64,000 bases of DNA from Nitrosospira multiformis (GTDB lineage: Bacteria > Pseudomonadota > Gammaproteobacteria > Burkholderiales > Nitrosomonadaceae). This document shows positions 2,594 to 7,454 of this stretch, one piece after another (position 1 is the stretch's first letter; every line of letters starts with the position of its first letter). The position numbers and the translations under genes were made by a program. The DNA lies in NCBI GenBank assembly GCA_017306155.1, contig JAFKJB010000013.1:53159-117158 (forward strand), in the 5' to 3' direction. A model generated the notes under the pieces. The model saw nothing but the letters and a program-made list of their open reading frames with translations. It did no database searches and was not told where the DNA came from.

Positions 2594-3823
2594 TTAGATA
2601 TAAGGCGTCCACCAGCTGTCGCGGTGCCGGGACTTGAATGCGGCGAACCGCCGGCAGATCGGATAGAGCAGCGCGGTTATCACAACCCAGACAAGGTAAA
2701 CAACTGGAAGGCTGAATCCCCACCAGGATGGAAATTCCCACGAAGAAGTCATGAATGAGCTGATATCGGCTCCCATTGCCAACGCAATGAGCAGGGCGAG
2801 CCCGTGAATAAAATACAGATGAATGAGATAGAAAAACAAGGGCACGCGCCCAAAGGTGATAAGAAAACGCCCCGCGCCGCCATGCGGTCCATGTGCCTCA
2901 TGCCACCAGTCAAATGCAGATATCAATAGGAACATGAGTCCGAGCGTCATCAGCAGATAGAGCAGCGACGGCGGATATTTTGTCGCATTCAGGAAAGATA
3001 GCAGGGTAAATACCGAGGTTTCCTGCACAACCCATGGACCCGGATCACCATAGATATTCAGGGCCCGGAGAATGAGGAAGCCTGCGACAAGAATAACGCC
3101 GCATTCAAGCACTGCCTTTATTCTTGCCTTCGATGGCAGCAGCATGATCGGACCAAATGCGTAACCTGCGGCCATTACTCCGATCCAGGGAATGAGGGGA
3201 TACACTACCGGGAAGTGGGGGATATGGAGCACACTCAACAGCCATCCTTTCCAGGTGAGCGAGCCGCCCGCTGTCTGAAAATCCTCAAGCCGTATGCCAT
3301 CGAGCAGATTGTGAGTCAGGATCATGCCGATGCCAAAGCCGGCTATCGCCCATAGCGGCAGATAGACGAGGGCTGCCAGAGCAATCATCGACCAGCCCAG
3401 CGCCCAGATCACCTGCAAATCCATCAAGCTGTAATCCAGGTTGAAGAACCAGGCAAAACGCACCACTGTCAGCTCAAGAAATACCAGCCACAACCCCCGC
3501 AGGAGTAACCGTTTTGCCAGTTGTGAGCGCTGCATGCCTCTGGATGCAGACAGATAAGCGCTCGTGCCCGCCAGAAAGACAAATACCGGTGCGCACAGGT
3601 GAGTGATCCATCGTGTCAGGAAAATGGCGGGAGTGGTGCGGGCAAGATCCGTGGAGCTGAAATCCGCATCGGTGAAAAACCCGCGCACATGGTCGAGCGC
3701 CATGAGAACCATGACCAGCCCACGCATGAGGTCGATGGAGGTAATATAGGGTGGTGGGGTTGAGGAAGGTTTAGGGGGGGATTTATTGGGCATGGCGAAC
3801 GTTCCCCATTGTTTTCTCGTCAA
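2594..3823 (-). CDS. DUF1624 / HGSNAT-like multipass membrane acyltransferase
   Basis: Inner-membrane protein of about ten hydrophobic segments. The N-terminus contains SIDLMRGLVMVLMALDHVRG, the signature of the DUF1624 family related to the heparan-alpha-glucosaminide N-acetyltransferase catalytic region, with a histidine (DHVRG) in the first loop. Known relatives move acetyl groups across the membrane onto sugars; the substrate here is unknown. Length (409 aa, or 399 from the internal ATG at 3793) is normal for the family. The upstream 85-aa gene is on the same strand and belongs to the phage-like immunity region. This gene could therefore be either a passenger of the leftward phage transcript or ordinary host DNA at its border. 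Confidence 0.8.
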   Translation of the reverse strand: MTRKQWGTFAMPNKSPPKPSSTPPPYITSIDLMRGLVMVLMALDHVRGFFTDADFSSTDLARTTPAIFLTRWITHLCAPVFVFLAGTSAYLSASRGMQRSQLAKRLLLRGLWLVFLELTVVRFAWFFNLDYSLMDLQVIWALGWSMIALAALVYLPLWAIAGFGIGMILTHNLLDGIRLEDFQTAGGSLTWKGWLLSVLHIPHFPVVYPLIPWIGVMAAGYAFGPIMLLPSKARIKAVLECGVILVAGFLILRALNIYGDPGPWVVQETSVFTLLSFLNATKYPPSLLYLLMTLGLMFLLISAFDWWHEAHGPHGGAGRFLITFGRVPLFFYLIHLYFIHGLALLIALAMGADISSFMTSSWEFPSWWGFSLPVVYLVWVVITALLYPICRRFAAFKSRHRDSWWTPYI

Positions 3824-3886
3824 CTTACCGGAAGACCCGTATCAAGATTTTTGGATATTGCGATCAGTGCCAGCAGCAGAAAACAT

Positions 3887-4144
3887 CTATTCATTCACCT
3901 CCTTCCACTTCGCCGCCGCGAGACAAGCCGCTTCCCGCAGAGTGGCGGCGCTGCTTCTGATTTCATCGCAATGGAGAGTGAAGCCAGCGCAAGATTGCGG
4001 TGTCGAGCGATTATAGATGGCCTGGTCACAGTATTCGCTTAACCAGTCCAGTATCTCGGTATCCGAGAGATCACAGGGGGCAGGACGATGTTCGGTCCAC
4101 GCTGCCATCCAGCTCATCCATCGTCCCACCCCGTTTCCCATCAC
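3887..4144 (-). CDS. Small phage-type protein, 85 aa, first gene of the leftward early transcript
   Basis: I do not recognise a named family. The protein starts with an aromatic-rich segment and contains LSDTEILDWLSEY and a C-terminal helix LREAACLAAAKWKEV, a composition often seen in small early phage proteins of beta-proteobacteria. It lies about 220 bases downstream of the operator-bearing leftward promoter at 4369-4397, with nothing between but a hairpin. That is the place occupied in lambda by the first gene of the PL transcript. Plus-strand frames across the same bases are low-quality shadows. The function is unknown; an antitermination or early-regulatory role would be pure guesswork. 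Confidence 0.55.
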   Translation of the reverse strand: MMGNGVGRWMSWMAAWTEHRPAPCDLSDTEILDWLSEYCDQAIYNRSTPQSCAGFTLHCDEIRSSAATLREAACLAAAKWKEVNE

Positions 4145-4320
4145 GCTCTCCCTCGCTCTGCCATAGTTTGCCCTTTCAAGTCGGGCTCAAGTTCCGCGCC
4201 AGGCACGGCCTGGATATTTCTTTATGCCTTTCCCTTCCCTGACCGCTTGTCTTTCGACGCCCTGAGGGTCTTAATCGATCGAGGCTATGCCTGAGGCAGG
4301 CTGCACGTCTGTTTCACGGA

Positions 4321-4360
4321 TGCTGCAACACCAGGACCGAGTAACTGCGGTGTTGCAGCA
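4321..4360. repeat. Perfect 12-bp inverted repeat at the 5-prime end of the leftward transcript
   Basis: TGCTGCAACACC (4321-4332) and GGTGTTGCAGCA (4349-4360) are exact reverse complements separated by 16 bases. Neither side has a T-run, so it is not a simple terminator. The predicted start of the leftward transcript is about 4362, so the RNA would begin with this hairpin. Confidence 0.7.
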
Positions 4361-4368
4361 TGGAGAGC

Positions 4369-4397
4369 ATATTACAAGTATTACTTGTAATTGTCAA
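4369..4397 (-). promoter_or_regulatory. Leftward sigma-70 promoter (PL-like)
   Basis: Reading the minus strand, TTGACA (plus 4392-4397) is followed after exactly 17 bases by TAATAT (plus 4369-4374). A 17-bp operator occupies the spacer. The layout is almost base-for-base the same as the rightward promoter at 5926-5954. It would drive the 85-aa gene at 3887-4144. Confidence 0.75.
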
Positions 4398-4435
4398 GAC
4401 ATACTTGTAAACAAGTTTGCCTTGTTTACAAGTAT
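4371..4435. promoter_or_regulatory. Cluster of three 17-bp repressor operators (OL-like)
   Basis: Three sites fit the consensus TACAAG-N5-CTTGTA. Site 4373-4389 is perfect and lies within a 21-bp perfect palindrome at 4371-4391. Site 4393-4409 has a degenerate left half (GTCAAG) and an intact right half. Site 4410-4426 reads AACAAG-N5-CTTGTT. The last two lie in a larger perfect inverted repeat with 15-bp arms (4401-4415 and 4421-4435). The first operator fills the spacer of the leftward promoter and the second overlaps its -35 box, so binding would shut it off. Confidence 0.75.
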
Positions 4436-4462
4436 GGAATGGAAGGAGGGTTGAGTTTTGAG

Positions 4463-4789
4463 TTAACGGCCGGGGACCCTGACGAAAGGAATTTCAGCCT
4501 GGCGCTCGTGCGTTCTGCCAGGGCCGAATTCCATCACATGATCATCATGAAGGATGACTGAATAATCGACAGTATTCGGATAGGGTCCACTGAACAAGGA
4601 CCAGGTGTGCCGACGATCGATATAGAGCAATGCCTCATAATCGCCGCTGCGCTGATAGCCGTCCGGATTACCCGCAATATTTATCACTTGTGCTTTTGTC
4701 ATGCCTTCCCGGACGCCTGACATTTTTCCTGTGATGACACACGAAGAAAGCACCAGCATACTGAACAAGGCAACAATAATATTTTTCAT
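4463..4789 (-). CDS. Small outer-membrane-assembly-like lipoprotein (SmpA/OmlA-type fold), passenger of the immunity region
   Basis: A type II signal peptide with lipobox LSSC at about residue 16 predicts a lipid-anchored envelope protein. The segment VREGMTKAQVINIAGNPDG resembles the start of the SmpA/OmlA (BamE-like) domain, whose members bind envelope proteins; the rest is short (108 aa). It lies between the OL-like operators and the repressor, on the same strand as the repressor, 100 bases downstream of the 73-aa gene. This is the location of rexBA in lambda, so expression in the lysogenic state is plausible. A surface lipoprotein here could act as a lysogenic-conversion factor. That is inference from position only. 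Confidence 0.75.
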   Translation of the reverse strand: MKNIIVALFSMLVLSSCVITGKMSGVREGMTKAQVINIAGNPDGYQRSGDYEALLYIDRRHTWSLFSGPYPNTVDYSVILHDDHVMEFGPGRTHERQAEIPFVRVPGR

Positions 4790-4888
4790 ATGAGCTCCTG
4801 ATCAATAAAAAAGGCGAAAAAAAAGAATAAGACATAAACTATAAAATCAGTACATTATTTCATGCTAAATTTCAGCTTTCCGGATAAA

Positions 4889-5110
4889 TCAGCTCTCCAG
4901 TTCCCGGATAAGCAATGCGACTTCCGCTACTTCACCCAGCACTTCCTTTACTGCCTGCTCAAGTGTATACCTCCTTTTTTCGAGTTCCCGCAATTCCTCG
5001 GGGAATTGCATAATATATTTGTCACGTTTTGCACGTGCCTTTTCTGAAACATGAAAAGCGAGCAGCATCTCCGTGCTGTCATACGGCAGTCTGTTTGCTA
5101 ATGGTCTCAT
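4889..5110 (-). CDS. Small charged protein, 73 aa, between repressor and lipoprotein
   Basis: Unrecognised hydrophilic helical protein with many Glu, Arg and Leu residues (EELRELEKRRYTLEQAVKEVL). The pattern may form a coiled coil. No signal peptide or membrane segment is seen. It lies downstream of the repressor on the same strand, in the interval between the two operator clusters, and could be part of a lysogenic transcript. The 214 bases between it and the repressor stop contain no further ORF I can support. A small regulatory partner or superinfection-exclusion protein would fit the place, but no sequence evidence shows it. Confidence 0.55.
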   Translation of the reverse strand: MRPLANRLPYDSTEMLLAFHVSEKARAKRDKYIMQFPEELRELEKRRYTLEQAVKEVLGEVAEVALLIRELES

Positions 5111-5324
5111 GATGGCAGGAGCGTTACTGGCATATCACTGGTCCAGATTATTGTAAGGCGCACCACTCTTCTATTGTTCCGATGATATTTACGAGTGGGC
5201 GACGGGAATATGTTTCGTATTTCCGTATATATATTTTCTTTTTATAAACATGCTACTACAGCATGGTCAGCCTCGGCGTCTGTCACTTTTGCGACGATCT
5301 GGTCCGTGCCTGGAAAACTGGCGT

Positions 5325-5879
5325 CTATCTGATTGCCGTCTTTCCTCTGACCTTCGTTCTACTCTCGGGCATCCGACGCGGAGGAAAAGCTGGAGGTGGA
5401 TGAGGAGGCAGATCCGGTACCGGCAACGGTTTCAAATCTACCGAAGGGACCGCTTCAACCACTTCGGCAGATGTTTCGCCGACCAGGGCTTTGCTTATTG
5501 TTACCAGGCGGGCTGCATCTTCTTTCGACATGCGCCGCATTGCTTCGACAACCTGATCGATAAGCGCATCGTTCTCCGAAGCCGGTTTCTCAGCGATGCG
5601 GGGAGAAGTACCTCGGGTTCCACGTGCCAGATTCTCCGGCTGAGGCGATACAGTAGTATCAGGCACAGCCGGAACTTCCAGTGACATCCCGAAGTGCATC
5701 ATCGCTGGAGGCAGCTTGAGCACTTCCGCGATCCTGTTCAGTCTTTTCCCGCGAGGCTGCGTAGCACCGGATTCCCACTGCTGAACCGCTTGCGGAGAGA
5801 CGCCCACGAGCTCCGCCAGCTCCGACTGGTTCAGTTCAAGCTTTTCGCGCCCTTCGCGAATTATCCGCGCAATGTCCAT
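5325..5879 (-). CDS. XRE-family helix-turn-helix repressor (phage CI-like)
   Basis: DNA-binding regulator. The N-terminal 60 residues form a Cro/CI-type helix-turn-helix: LNQSELAELVGVSPQAVQQWESG is the canonical recognition unit. The remainder is a proline-rich linker and a short helical C-terminal part; I see no Ser-Lys LexA/CI peptidase domain, so induction may not use RecA self-cleavage. I chose the ATG at 5879 (MDIARII) over the TTG at 5894. A TATTAT box lies seven bases upstream of it, so the mRNA may be leaderless, as from lambda PRM. Three operators lie immediately upstream and three more at 4373-4426. It is the obvious candidate to bind them, repressing both outward promoters and possibly activating itself from the middle site. 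Confidence 0.88.
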   Translation of the reverse strand: MDIARIIREGREKLELNQSELAELVGVSPQAVQQWESGATQPRGKRLNRIAEVLKLPPAMMHFGMSLEVPAVPDTTVSPQPENLARGTRGTSPRIAEKPASENDALIDQVVEAMRRMSKEDAARLVTISKALVGETSAEVVEAVPSVDLKPLPVPDLPPHPPPAFPPRRMPESRTKVRGKTAIR

Positions 5880-5889
5880 GCCATCATAA

Positions 5890-5950
5890 TACAAGCAATT
5901 CTTGCACCCCGCTTACAAGTTTCCCTTGACATCTACAAGTAAAACTTGTA
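5890..5950. promoter_or_regulatory. Cluster of three 17-bp repressor operators (OR-like)
   Basis: Three sites fit TACAAG-N5-CTTGTA: 5890-5906 (TACAAG-N5-CTTGCA), 5914-5930 (TACAAG-N5-CTTGAC) and 5934-5950 (perfect). Centre-to-centre spacings are 24 and 20 bp, within the range of lambda OR. The site nearest the rightward promoter is the best match and fills its spacer. The site nearest the repressor gene overlaps its presumed -10 region. The middle site is centred about 43 bp before the presumed repressor transcript start. Confidence 0.75.
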
Positions 5951-5954
5951 ATAA
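5926..5954 (+). promoter_or_regulatory. Rightward sigma-70 promoter (PR-like)
   Basis: TTGACA (5926-5931), 17-base spacer, TAATAA (5949-5954). The spacer contains the perfect operator 5934-5950. Transcription would start near 5961 and run through the two phage-type genes at 6163 and 6397. Between 5961 and 6163 only tiny ORFs occur and no cro-like gene is visible. Confidence 0.72.
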
Positions 5955-6162
5955 TATCTTTCATTGGAAATCTTCAAGCAAAAAAGGTTCGCCCATCACA
6001 GTGGACCACAAAGCAATGCCACTTATCGTCGAACAAATGGCTCTGCACCCTGAATGACTACAGATGCACCGGGTGCCTATCAGCAACAACCTGTGGCACA
6101 GGCATTCACAAAGGACGGCTGCAATCATGGTGGAAAATTTTTAAGGAATCAGAGGGTAACCA

Positions 6163-6393
6163 ATGAGAACGGGTATCAGAAGATCAGACACCGAAAAGAA
6201 CGGTATACGCTTGCCTCTTGAGCGTTGGGAGTATGGAAATCCAGAAGCGGTTGCAGAGCGCAGACAGGCCCGGTCATGCCATGGCTGCCGGCATGAATCG
6301 AAAATCCGGATGGGGTGGAATAACCTGGAGTTTTGTGAAAAAGGGCGAAAACACGGCATTCGTTGTACATTTTTTTCAAAAAAGGGAATATGA
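6163..6393 (+). CDS. Small cysteine-rich phage protein, 76 aa
   Basis: A basic protein with four cysteines arranged CxxC near residue 39 (CHGC) then two later cysteines (EFC and RC), which could form a zinc-binding knuckle. The opening, RRSDTEKNGIRLPLERWEYGN, is of a type I associate with early genes of beta-proteobacterial phages, but I cannot name a family. A GAGGG ribosome binding site precedes the ATG. It ends three bases before the next gene, so the two are translationally linked. It lies about 200 bases downstream of the operator-controlled rightward promoter. The function is unknown; nucleic-acid binding is the most natural guess. Confidence 0.6.
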   Translation: MRTGIRRSDTEKNGIRLPLERWEYGNPEAVAERRQARSCHGCRHESKIRMGWNNLEFCEKGRKHGIRCTFFSKKGI

Positions 6394-6396
6394 AAA

Positions 6397-6921
6397 ATGA
6401 AGTTTAATGATCCGCAGCATGCATTGAGCTGGGCATATGAAACCACTAGCCGTCCGATCGTAAAAATCTCATCCGTTAACGCAATGCGTGGAGCTGAAAG
6501 AGCAGGGGAGGGGGGCGCAAATGATGAATTGACCGCGTATGATCTTCACGCGCAGGCAGCGCTGATTCTAAGTCTATGCAAGCGCATATTATCCGATCTG
6601 CATATGGCGTACATAAATGTTCAATTCGGCCGGGAAGCGAGCGGCTTCGATCTGCTCAGCCGGCACCTCGCTGCAAATTTTGGGACGGGAATCCACAATC
6701 GTAGAGGTATCGAGCAGATAATTCGCGCCTACTGCGGCCAAAAGATCGGGTTGCGTGAAATCAGGAAAACCATGGCCTGTGGAATGCTCAAGGCAGCCTC
6801 ATTGCGTAATCGCGGCTATGATGCGCTCGATCTGCTTCATGATCAGGCAATGGATATGCTGCAAAGGGAGATGGAAAGCCGCGGCCTGCTGCGGAACCCG
6901 CGGGTCAGTGAAATGGCGTAA
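6397..6921 (+). CDS. Phage-type regulatory protein, 174 aa (possibly late-gene antiterminator-like)
   Basis: Soluble protein without signal peptide. It has an N-terminal segment HALSWAYETTSRPIVKIS, a central helical part LTAYDLHAQAALIL, and a C-terminal region with a possible helix-turn-helix (GLREIRKTMACGMLKAASL). Proteins with this order of segments occur at the end of early operons in phages of Burkholderia and relatives, where Q-type regulators usually sit. The assignment as an antiterminator is weak inference. It follows the cysteine-rich gene after three bases and is the last gene of the rightward remnant; beyond 6921 the DNA returns to non-phage character. Confidence 0.6.
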   Translation: MKFNDPQHALSWAYETTSRPIVKISSVNAMRGAERAGEGGANDELTAYDLHAQAALILSLCKRILSDLHMAYINVQFGREASGFDLLSRHLAANFGTGIHNRRGIEQIIRAYCGQKIGLREIRKTMACGMLKAASLRNRGYDALDLLHDQAMDMLQREMESRGLLRNPRVSEMA

Positions 6922-7163
6922 TTAGACCAGACCAGAAGAAGATCGAGCTGGTATGCCGTAAACTTCCTGCCCCGGCTCGATCCCGGTTCTGCGCCGATCC
7001 AGAATGGAGTTCTGTAACGGCTCTGTCTTTTTTCAGGTTGAGTACGCCACCGCACAGAATTAGTCTGCTGATTTATGCAATTCTCAAATGGTATGAACAC
7101 GGACAGAACGGTGAGTACCGGATCTGTTTTATCACAGATAATCTACCCTCGAAGAATTTACCT

Positions 7164-7454
7164 ATGAGAGAGAAGACGACTATCGTTTCAGTAGGAATGA
7201 GCGGACTCGTGATAGTAATGCTTGCGGGATGCGGTACCCGCACCACCCAGGAAGACGTCAGATCCGTTGACTGGTATGAGGCGCATGCAACGGAACGAAC
7301 TGCAAAGCTAAATGATTGCATGACCAATCCGCATACGCTGGATGCAACGCCCGATTGTGTCAATGCGAGCCGTGCTGAAAATAACGTTAAAGCAACGACC
7401 AAGTGGGCTACGCCAGACGAAGGTGTCCGCACTGAGCCCACTATAAGCAATTAG
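7164..7454 (+). CDS. EexN-family lipoprotein
   Basis: Lipoprotein with signal peptide and lipobox LAGC at about residue 21. The mature part matches the EexN pattern: VDWYEAHATERTAKLNDC, then CVNASRAENN, with the two conserved cysteines presumably disulfide-linked. EexN of IncN plasmids causes entry exclusion, blocking conjugative transfer into cells already holding the plasmid. Chromosomal family members are common and their role is unclear. No conjugation gene is nearby. I chose the ATG at 7164 because the upstream part of the frame has no signal-peptide character. A stem-loop followed by T residues lies 120 bases downstream. Confidence 0.78.
   Translation: MREKTTIVSVGMSGLVIVMLAGCGTRTTQEDVRSVDWYEAHATERTAKLNDCMTNPHTLDATPDCVNASRAENNVKATTKWATPDEGVRTEPTISN

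Follow-up and report, generated by a model that had tools for sequence, protein, structure and literature searches.

The locus described here raises the question of what a lambda-like arrangement of repressor, operators and outward-facing promoters is doing on the chromosome of an ammonia oxidiser. It lies in a 64,000-nt stretch of Nitrosospira multiformis (GCA_017306155.1, contig JAFKJB010000013.1, positions 53,159-117,158, forward strand), termed the window, to which all position numbers refer, and it centres on an XRE repressor gene. The best explanation, to which a probability of roughly 0.8 is given, is that the locus represents the early-control (immunity) region that a temperate phage left behind, passed on by descent and still constrained, that is, a DicA-like domesticated lambda-type switch. 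The case for a domesticated immunity region is made by three lines taken in combination: how the locus is laid out, its relatives in phages and its conservation. The locus does not read as an active prophage.

Conservation was assessed in 23 Nitrosospira genomes (the genus set, in which one genome is named Nitrosovibrio) and in a family set that adds 102 other genomes. Full-length relatives of the repressor were found in 22 of the 23 genus genomes, and matches at the level of the helix-turn-helix (HTH) alone in 8 of the 102 others. Of 14 named loci matching the repressor, 3 do so in the HTH alone; the other 11 (10 Nitrosospira, 1 Nitrosovibrio) hold relatives of full length. Twenty-two loci were read, namely the window and 21 others, five of which (window included) belong to the N. 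multiformis clade, and the gene order p3887, lipoprotein, p4889, repressor, p6397 was constant in all of them. The control region, intact-looking and probably retained by descent, stands at a single chromosomal locus here and in nearly all sister species searched, and the rest of the virus is missing. The literature matches listed, drawn from open-licence papers, contained nothing on this Nitrosospira locus.

Operators and promoters

An earlier note on this DNA had described a lambda-like layout in which the repressor and two passenger genes lie between two operator sets with outward PL- and PR-like promoters. This layout was confirmed (Table 1), the two passenger genes standing where lambda has rexA and rexB. 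The six 17-bp sites (TACAAG-N5-CTTGTA) and both promoter sequences were found where the note had placed them. The right-cluster spacings of 24 and 20 bp were likewise recovered: the first is 24 in 22/22 loci and the second either 20 (18 loci) or 19 (4 loci). Given that the geometry script located OR2 by its own motif and set OR3 24 bp away, the spacing of 24 and the OR2 arm score rest on a separate free scan for sites.

Table 1. Coordinates of features at the Nitrosospira locus, with their state in the window and in the 22 loci read
Feature	Position	Strand	Remarks
p3887, 85 aa, first gene after PL	3887-4144	-	22/22 loci; dN/dS 0.16-0.35
Conserved structured RNA element of PL leader (model R1)	4167-4322	-	covariation; one copy per genome
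5' hairpin at predicted PL transcript start	4320-4361	-	hairpin in 21/21 loci folded (L071 left out)
PL-like promoter, TTGACA-17-TAATAT	4369-4397	-	sequence and conservation
OL1-like operator, inside PL spacer	4373-4389		exact in window; exact in 22/22 loci
OL2-like operator	4393-4409		2 mismatches in window; ≤2 mismatches in 8/22 loci
Third left site	4410-4426		2 mismatches; window alone (1/22 loci)
Lipoprotein, passenger gene	4463-4789	-	22/22 loci; BamE/OsmE resemblance weak, sub-cut-off; dN/dS 0.21-0.23
p4889, 73 aa, passenger gene	4889-5110	-	22/22 loci; dN/dS 0-0.11
XRE repressor, 184 aa	5325-5879	-	P22 C2/DicA-type HTH (~1-57), helical hairpin (~102-133), conserved Pro-rich tail
PRM-like -10, TATTAT	5886-5891	-	predicted start 5879 = A of repressor ATG (leaderless)
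OR3-like operator, overlaps PRM-like -10	5890-5906		1 mismatch in window; 1-2 mismatches in 22/22 loci
OR2-like operator	5914-5930		right arm common with PR -35; centre ~-43 of PRM-like promoter; 2 mismatches in 22/22 loci
OR1-like operator, inside PR spacer	5934-5950		exact in window; 0-1 mismatch in 22/22 loci
PR-like promoter, TTGACA-17-TAATAA	5926-5954	+	sequence and conservation
p6163, 76 aa, Cys-containing, behind PR	6163-6393	+	clear in 18/22 loci, weak in 2, absent from 2; dN/dS 0.19-0.37
p6397, 174 aa	6397-6921	+	22/22 loci; dN/dS 0.08-0.12

At ≤3 mismatches the operator pattern occurs 23 times in the window, compared with 15.0 ± 4.1 in shuffled sequences; because 4 of 100 shuffles reach 23, this loose count is weak evidence by itself. 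Chance statistics are indecisive, and it is the conservation across loci that settles the reality of the sites. The earlier note had held that the pattern should recur beside homologous repressors, its absence in relatives to count against the switch; the best left site and the three right sites are present in 22/22 loci, with the arms conserved at 95-100% and the centres at 70-80%. The N. multiformis genome itself (3.02 Mb) contains three sites with 0-1 mismatches, all at the locus, and at ≤2 mismatches there is no excess (60 sites against 139 for the reversed pattern). Across the genus set, 41 exact sites were counted in 22 genomes, each of them the OL1- or OR1-like site of the locus, compared with 8 for the reversed control; these sums and assignments were made by hand from printed coordinates. 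A wider regulon was rejected, there being no further site with 0-1 mismatches in the window's own genome and no exact one elsewhere in the 23 genus genomes.

In a promoter scan of positions 3700-7100, the PL- and PR-like promoters were the two best of 4 matches, shuffled sequences giving 3.8 on average; the scan parsed the right promoter as spacer 18, AATAAT. By eye, the -35 reads TTGAC on the right and TTGACA on the left in 22/22 loci. The PRM-like -10, which overlaps OR3, is TATNAT in 21/22 loci and TACTAT in the remaining one. Seven bases past it, the predicted +1 coincides with the first base of the repressor's ATG in 17/22 loci, and a leader of 39-47 nt precedes the gene in the other 5. 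The repressor start is most likely this ATG at 5879, rather than the TTG at 5894 of the list of open reading frames (ORFs). Relative to the predicted PRM start, the centre of OR2 falls at -43; PRM of lambda is leaderless, with OR2 at -42. The poor -35 of the PRM-like promoter would suit an activator-dependent promoter, without proving one.

The repressor and its viral relatives

Comparison of the repressor with Pfam returned HTH_3 (2e-15), and no non-HTH domain covers the rest of the protein. The earlier claim that no CI peptidase domain is recognisable also stands, given that no S24/LexA-type peptidase domain was matched in Pfam at E≤1. The closest solved sequence and fold is the N-terminal domain of P22 C2 (PDB sequence match 3.8e-8), and the closest NCBIfam model is DicA PRK09706, at 55.7 bits and under the cut-off of 101. 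A structure model built from 14 sequences has a mean predicted local distance difference test score (pLDDT) of 70.9, with a confident HTH, a helical hairpin and three stretches below 50. In these 14 sequences the recognition helix is near-invariant, and the repressor proteins are 61-95% identical to that of the window. With its P22 C2-type HTH and no peptidase domain, the repressor fits the non-cleavable class of DicA and the Gifsy repressors. A Pro-rich motif, LKPLPxPDLAPHPxPAFPPRR (residues 150-169, window ~5373-5432, minus strand), is strongly conserved in the same 14 sequences and is a candidate docking site.

The sequence suggests the following working. The P22 C2/DicA-type repressor would bind TACAAG-N5-CTTGTA at both clusters and so shut the outward PR- and PL-like promoters, while sustaining its own expression from the leaderless PRM-like promoter by way of OR2, which lies beside the poor -35; OR3 would cap its level. 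The two genes behind the repressor are probably co-expressed with it. Once repression is lifted, PL would give the structured leader RNA and p3887, and PR would give p6163, p6397 and, in loci that have them, the replication genes. Since the repressor has no recognised peptidase domain, release is expected from an antirepressor or partner, by analogy with DicA and the Gifsy repressors, rather than from self-cleavage.

A viral contig, IMGVR_UViG_3300020176_001130 (L274/L288), was found both by a scan for operators and by a scan for the helix. Its repressor shares the recognition helix GVSPQAVQQW with the locus, and three sites of the same operator consensus lie on either side of the repressor gene, at 1515, 1528 and 1548 (mismatches 2, 1, 2; the first two overlap) and at 2441, 2464 and 2497 (0, 2, 1), with a DUF1376 gene next, behind the right cluster. 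It differs from the locus in a C-terminus that reads as S24-type, in the presence of a Cro-like gene whose product bears this helix too, and in its spacings (23, 33, and the two overlapping left sites). The earlier note had regarded the Nitrosospira switch as an independently evolved or distant version of that of lambda. Given the P22 C2/DicA class of the HTH and a phage contig with an identical recognition helix and similar operator clusters, the switch is phage-derived and not independently evolved, with a different C-terminus on its repressor.

In five of the 50 viral stretches of the operator scan, at least two sites fall in a span of 120 bp. The helix-selected set comprised the best 80 of 85 viral loci (L287-L366) with PQAVQQW or M[DN]IA[KR]IIR, and is redundant, in that three helix strings make up 49 loci. 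Within 1.8 kb, these 80 loci hold 74 sites at ≤1 mismatch, compared with a single one for the reversed pattern and none for any of three other palindromes; at ≤2 mismatches, 222 sites compare with 35, 3, 4 and 14 for the controls. Thirteen of the 80 have two or more sites at ≤1 mismatch. The link between helix and operator is strong but not absolute, because at least one such site is present in 56/80 loci and in 25/32 distinct helix strings, and 24 loci have none.

Such viruses give some substance to a different view of the locus, namely that it is an anti-phage immunity device in which infecting phages with matching operators are silenced by the repressor and other phages are excluded by the lipoprotein or p4889. 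We consider this view doubtful. Viral contigs with such operators do exist; loci without replication genes still retain repressor, passengers and operators; and a precedent is provided by DicB in E. coli, according to the part of PMC10448788 that deals with it. Set against this, no exact site lies outside the locus in the 23 genomes and none at ≤2 mismatches in a prophage stretch of Nitrosospira genome G114, no Nitrosospira phage bearing these operators was recognised, the viral contigs not having been sorted by host, and immunity alone leaves the kept PL and PR outputs and the RNA unexplained.

The leader RNA of the left promoter

The interval between PL and p3887 has a mean column identity of 88% (20 sequences), to be set beside the 61-95% identity of the repressor proteins to that of the window, and 34 pairs were predicted in it by RNAalifold. 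In the alignment, 99.6% of cells pair and 8 pairs show changes on both sides, which 0/500 shuffles match; when the structure is slid along, 26-40% of cells pair. Because this alignment was also the source of the structure, the test is biased in its favour. On a measure of further pair types, 57/500 shuffles equal the leader RNA. G-U pairs are retained on the PL strand. Since single-sequence folding is unremarkable (z -0.23), the case for an RNA rests on covariation. Relative to mononucleotide shuffles, the 5' hairpin has z values from -1.2 to -7.1, averaging -3.5, and its sequence varies between loci.

Under stricter filters, the covariation model (R1) matched 21/23 genus genomes and 0/102 others of the family, the two genus genomes without a match being G108 and G112, the latter of which is without most of the block. 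In the order, it matched the window's own genome alone among 300, again with stricter filters by which weak matches may be lost. A search of positions 3700-7000 with 4227 Rfam models gave nothing above the gathering score and four chance-level matches; the best of these, mir-187 (E 1.5, 18.6 bits against 58), is on the plus strand at 4308-4371 and overlaps the edge of the leader RNA. The covarying PL-leader RNA, with no Rfam match above the gathering score, is a new element, confined to the genus in the searches made, and is apparently controlled by the repressor. A lone 22-base match to it in viruses (L193; 14.6 bits, E 0.11) lies inside a 684-aa ORF read as terminase and was judged to be chance.

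The RNA could also be a put-like, factor-independent antiterminator that carries PL transcripts through terminators, which is unlikely. Its position is in keeping with such a role, since the element begins at the predicted PL 5' end much as putL of HK022 is described just past PL (in the portion of PMC9378689 concerned), and it combines a 5' hairpin with a conserved domain. In size and fold, the features compared, it departs from put, with ~200 nt against ~70 nt and more stems; R1 matches the window at this one place, against the two elements of HK022, putL and putR (same part of PMC9378689). As described there, put is a structured RNA immediately downstream of PL with two stem-loops that is also present on PR, so that the Nitrosospira leader fits it by position, not by size or fold.

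Phage-type genes and the standing of the locus

The genes of the locus are under purifying selection comparable to that on the neighbouring host gene nhaA (ratio of nonsynonymous to synonymous substitution rates, dN/dS, 0.11-0.14; repressor, 0.09-0.19); ratios were obtained from the window and four close strains by the Nei-Gojobori method with our own script. Genes of the DUF1376 and DUF6475 families follow PR in 17/22 loci, DUF1376 being the first clustered family there and corresponding to a PHROG primosomal protein. Both are missing from the five N. multiformis-clade loci (the window and four close relatives), most simply through loss of the replication genes. The family searches used the copies of locus L064, and DUF6475 was also sought in all 23 genomes; among phage records, the closest DUF6475 protein is gp10 of Burkholderia phage Bcep176 (59% identity), beside a primosomal gene.

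A prophage of the same genus (L235, G114:C2:1080500-1100400) encodes DUF6475 (78% identical to the L064 copy), DUF1376 (39%) and a p6397 homologue (35%). These genes precede ORFs labelled, by reading, as spanin-like (lysis), HNH, terminase and portal, and the repressor is different from that of the locus. A prophage fragment (L221) of genome G281 (67% complete), which belongs to a different family in the order, holds a phage repressor with a UmuD-like part, DUF1376, a DnaC loader, a p6397 homologue and a head-tail adaptor. Because p6397 homologues precede structural or packaging genes in L221 and L235, p6397 presumably occupies the position of lambda Q. Its relatives were found on 11 viral contigs (32-61% identity) and it had no match among phage records; its structure model was discarded (pLDDT 42.9). 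Downstream of p6397 lies a gene for a lipoprotein of the EexN (entry exclusion) family (7161-7454, plus strand, 3.8e-16), present in 15/22 loci. A Gly-rich, probably secreted protein of ~200-260 aa is encoded between DUF6475 and p6397 in 9/22 loci (L058-L060, L063-L067, L070), and the copy scanned had no family match.

No structural phage gene was matched among the window proteins scanned. Searches with portal and sheath families revealed no structural module (tailocin or gene transfer agent) that the switch might drive throughout the genus. Portal matches in 7/23 genomes and sheath matches in 11/23 lie on other contigs or at least ~115 kb from the locus, which also argues against a locus that is still mobile, that is, a satellite or defective prophage repeatedly entering Nitrosospira and able to excise or be mobilised. 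Such an element would account for the phage-type genes and for the variable flanks, where several species have insertions separating the block from acylT/nhaA, but it is improbable in view of the single copy in 22/23 genomes, of flanking families that are partly common to several species, and of the absence of a tRNA from the 7 loci scanned. Least probable is that the conserved left-leader block is a coding or DNA element (such as an origin): although 11-13/20 rows are open in each frame of the opposite strand and the folding energy is ordinary, single-base indels occur, the frames of the RNA strand are open in 0, 0 and 7 of 20 rows, and the doubly changed pairs and the strand of the G-U pairs point to RNA.

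The locus shares with lambda and P22 a repressor and two passengers between OL and OR, operators within promoter spacers and a PRM that is laid out without a leader and with OR2 at about -42. It differs from them in lacking an S24 domain, a recognised Cro and a surrounding phage, in having one conserved left site and, in the window's clade, in the missing replication genes. The closest characterised parallel is dicA-dicC/dicBF of the cryptic Qin prophage of E. coli. As far as the relevant part of PMC10448788 describes it, this too has a short repressor without a cleavage bond, and there are three operators on each side; the DicA-type repressor holds down a PL-like promoter, the source of an sRNA (small RNA) and a small protein, repression can be relieved by an antirepressor, DicB guards E. 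coli against some phages, and the remnant persists in many strains. By contrast, the Nitrosospira locus is without a recognised DicC/Cro, its RNA is a conserved 5' leader, it is retained genus-wide, and its repressor has its own operator sequence, its own C-terminus and a score below the NCBIfam DicA cut-off. GfoR and GtgR of the Gifsy phages are likewise small repressors that are not cleaved on induction, but have another recognition helix and no such operators, and an antirepressor is known for Gifsy (PMC3121763, in part). PaaR2-YdaS of CP-933P is a remnant immunity region with a leaderless repressor and lambda-like PR, PRM and PL; it differs in its toxin-antitoxin genes, YdaS/YdaT and 18-bp GTTTAGTAA-type repeats (sections of PMC8630535).

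Several observations weigh against a domesticated lambda-type switch. At the locus itself, the second and third left sites are weakly kept (8/22 and 1/22 loci), the left -10 differs among loci by eye, no PRM -35 is recognisable in the 22 loci, and neither p6163 nor p6397, behind PR, gave the HTH match expected of a Cro-like gene, shorter ORFs not having been scanned. One genus genome, G108 (80% complete, 450 contigs), is without repressor, RNA, exact operators and p6397. As to the helix, 18 of the 24 viral loci without a site at ≤1 mismatch (best 80 of 85) share one string with exact PQAVQQW, and some viral loci carry the helix in a Cro-like protein. Stretches of a PQAVQKW phage (L378) and of Gifsy-1 (L380) have no site at ≤2 mismatches, and a Bordetella phage (L379, helix VSWQTVQQW) has two sites at 2 mismatches. 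Finally, the L235 prophage stretch holds no such operators at ≤2 mismatches, so that its switch differs from that of the locus.

The cell would most likely use the locus for phage exclusion or for regulation by the RNA. A tentative extension is that the lysogeny switch of a phage now serves the genus as a core regulator. Its conserved output, released from the left promoter, would be a structured RNA of a new class (a 5' hairpin and a 150-nt multi-stem domain) acting in trans as an sRNA or as a processive antiterminator, and the Pro-rich tail of the repressor would be an input sensor in place of SOS cleavage. The cryptic prophage switches found described (DicA, RacR, PaaR2) belong to strains of E. 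coli. In this genus of ammonia oxidisers, a switch of the lambda type is retained with its operators intact and without its phage. The locus also connects one operator sequence with the repressor helix PQAVQQW, a link seen in many, not all, of the viral loci that bear the helix. With a switch kept genus-wide, a link between helix and operator and a conserved RNA, the retention of phage switches by bacteria becomes a testable question.

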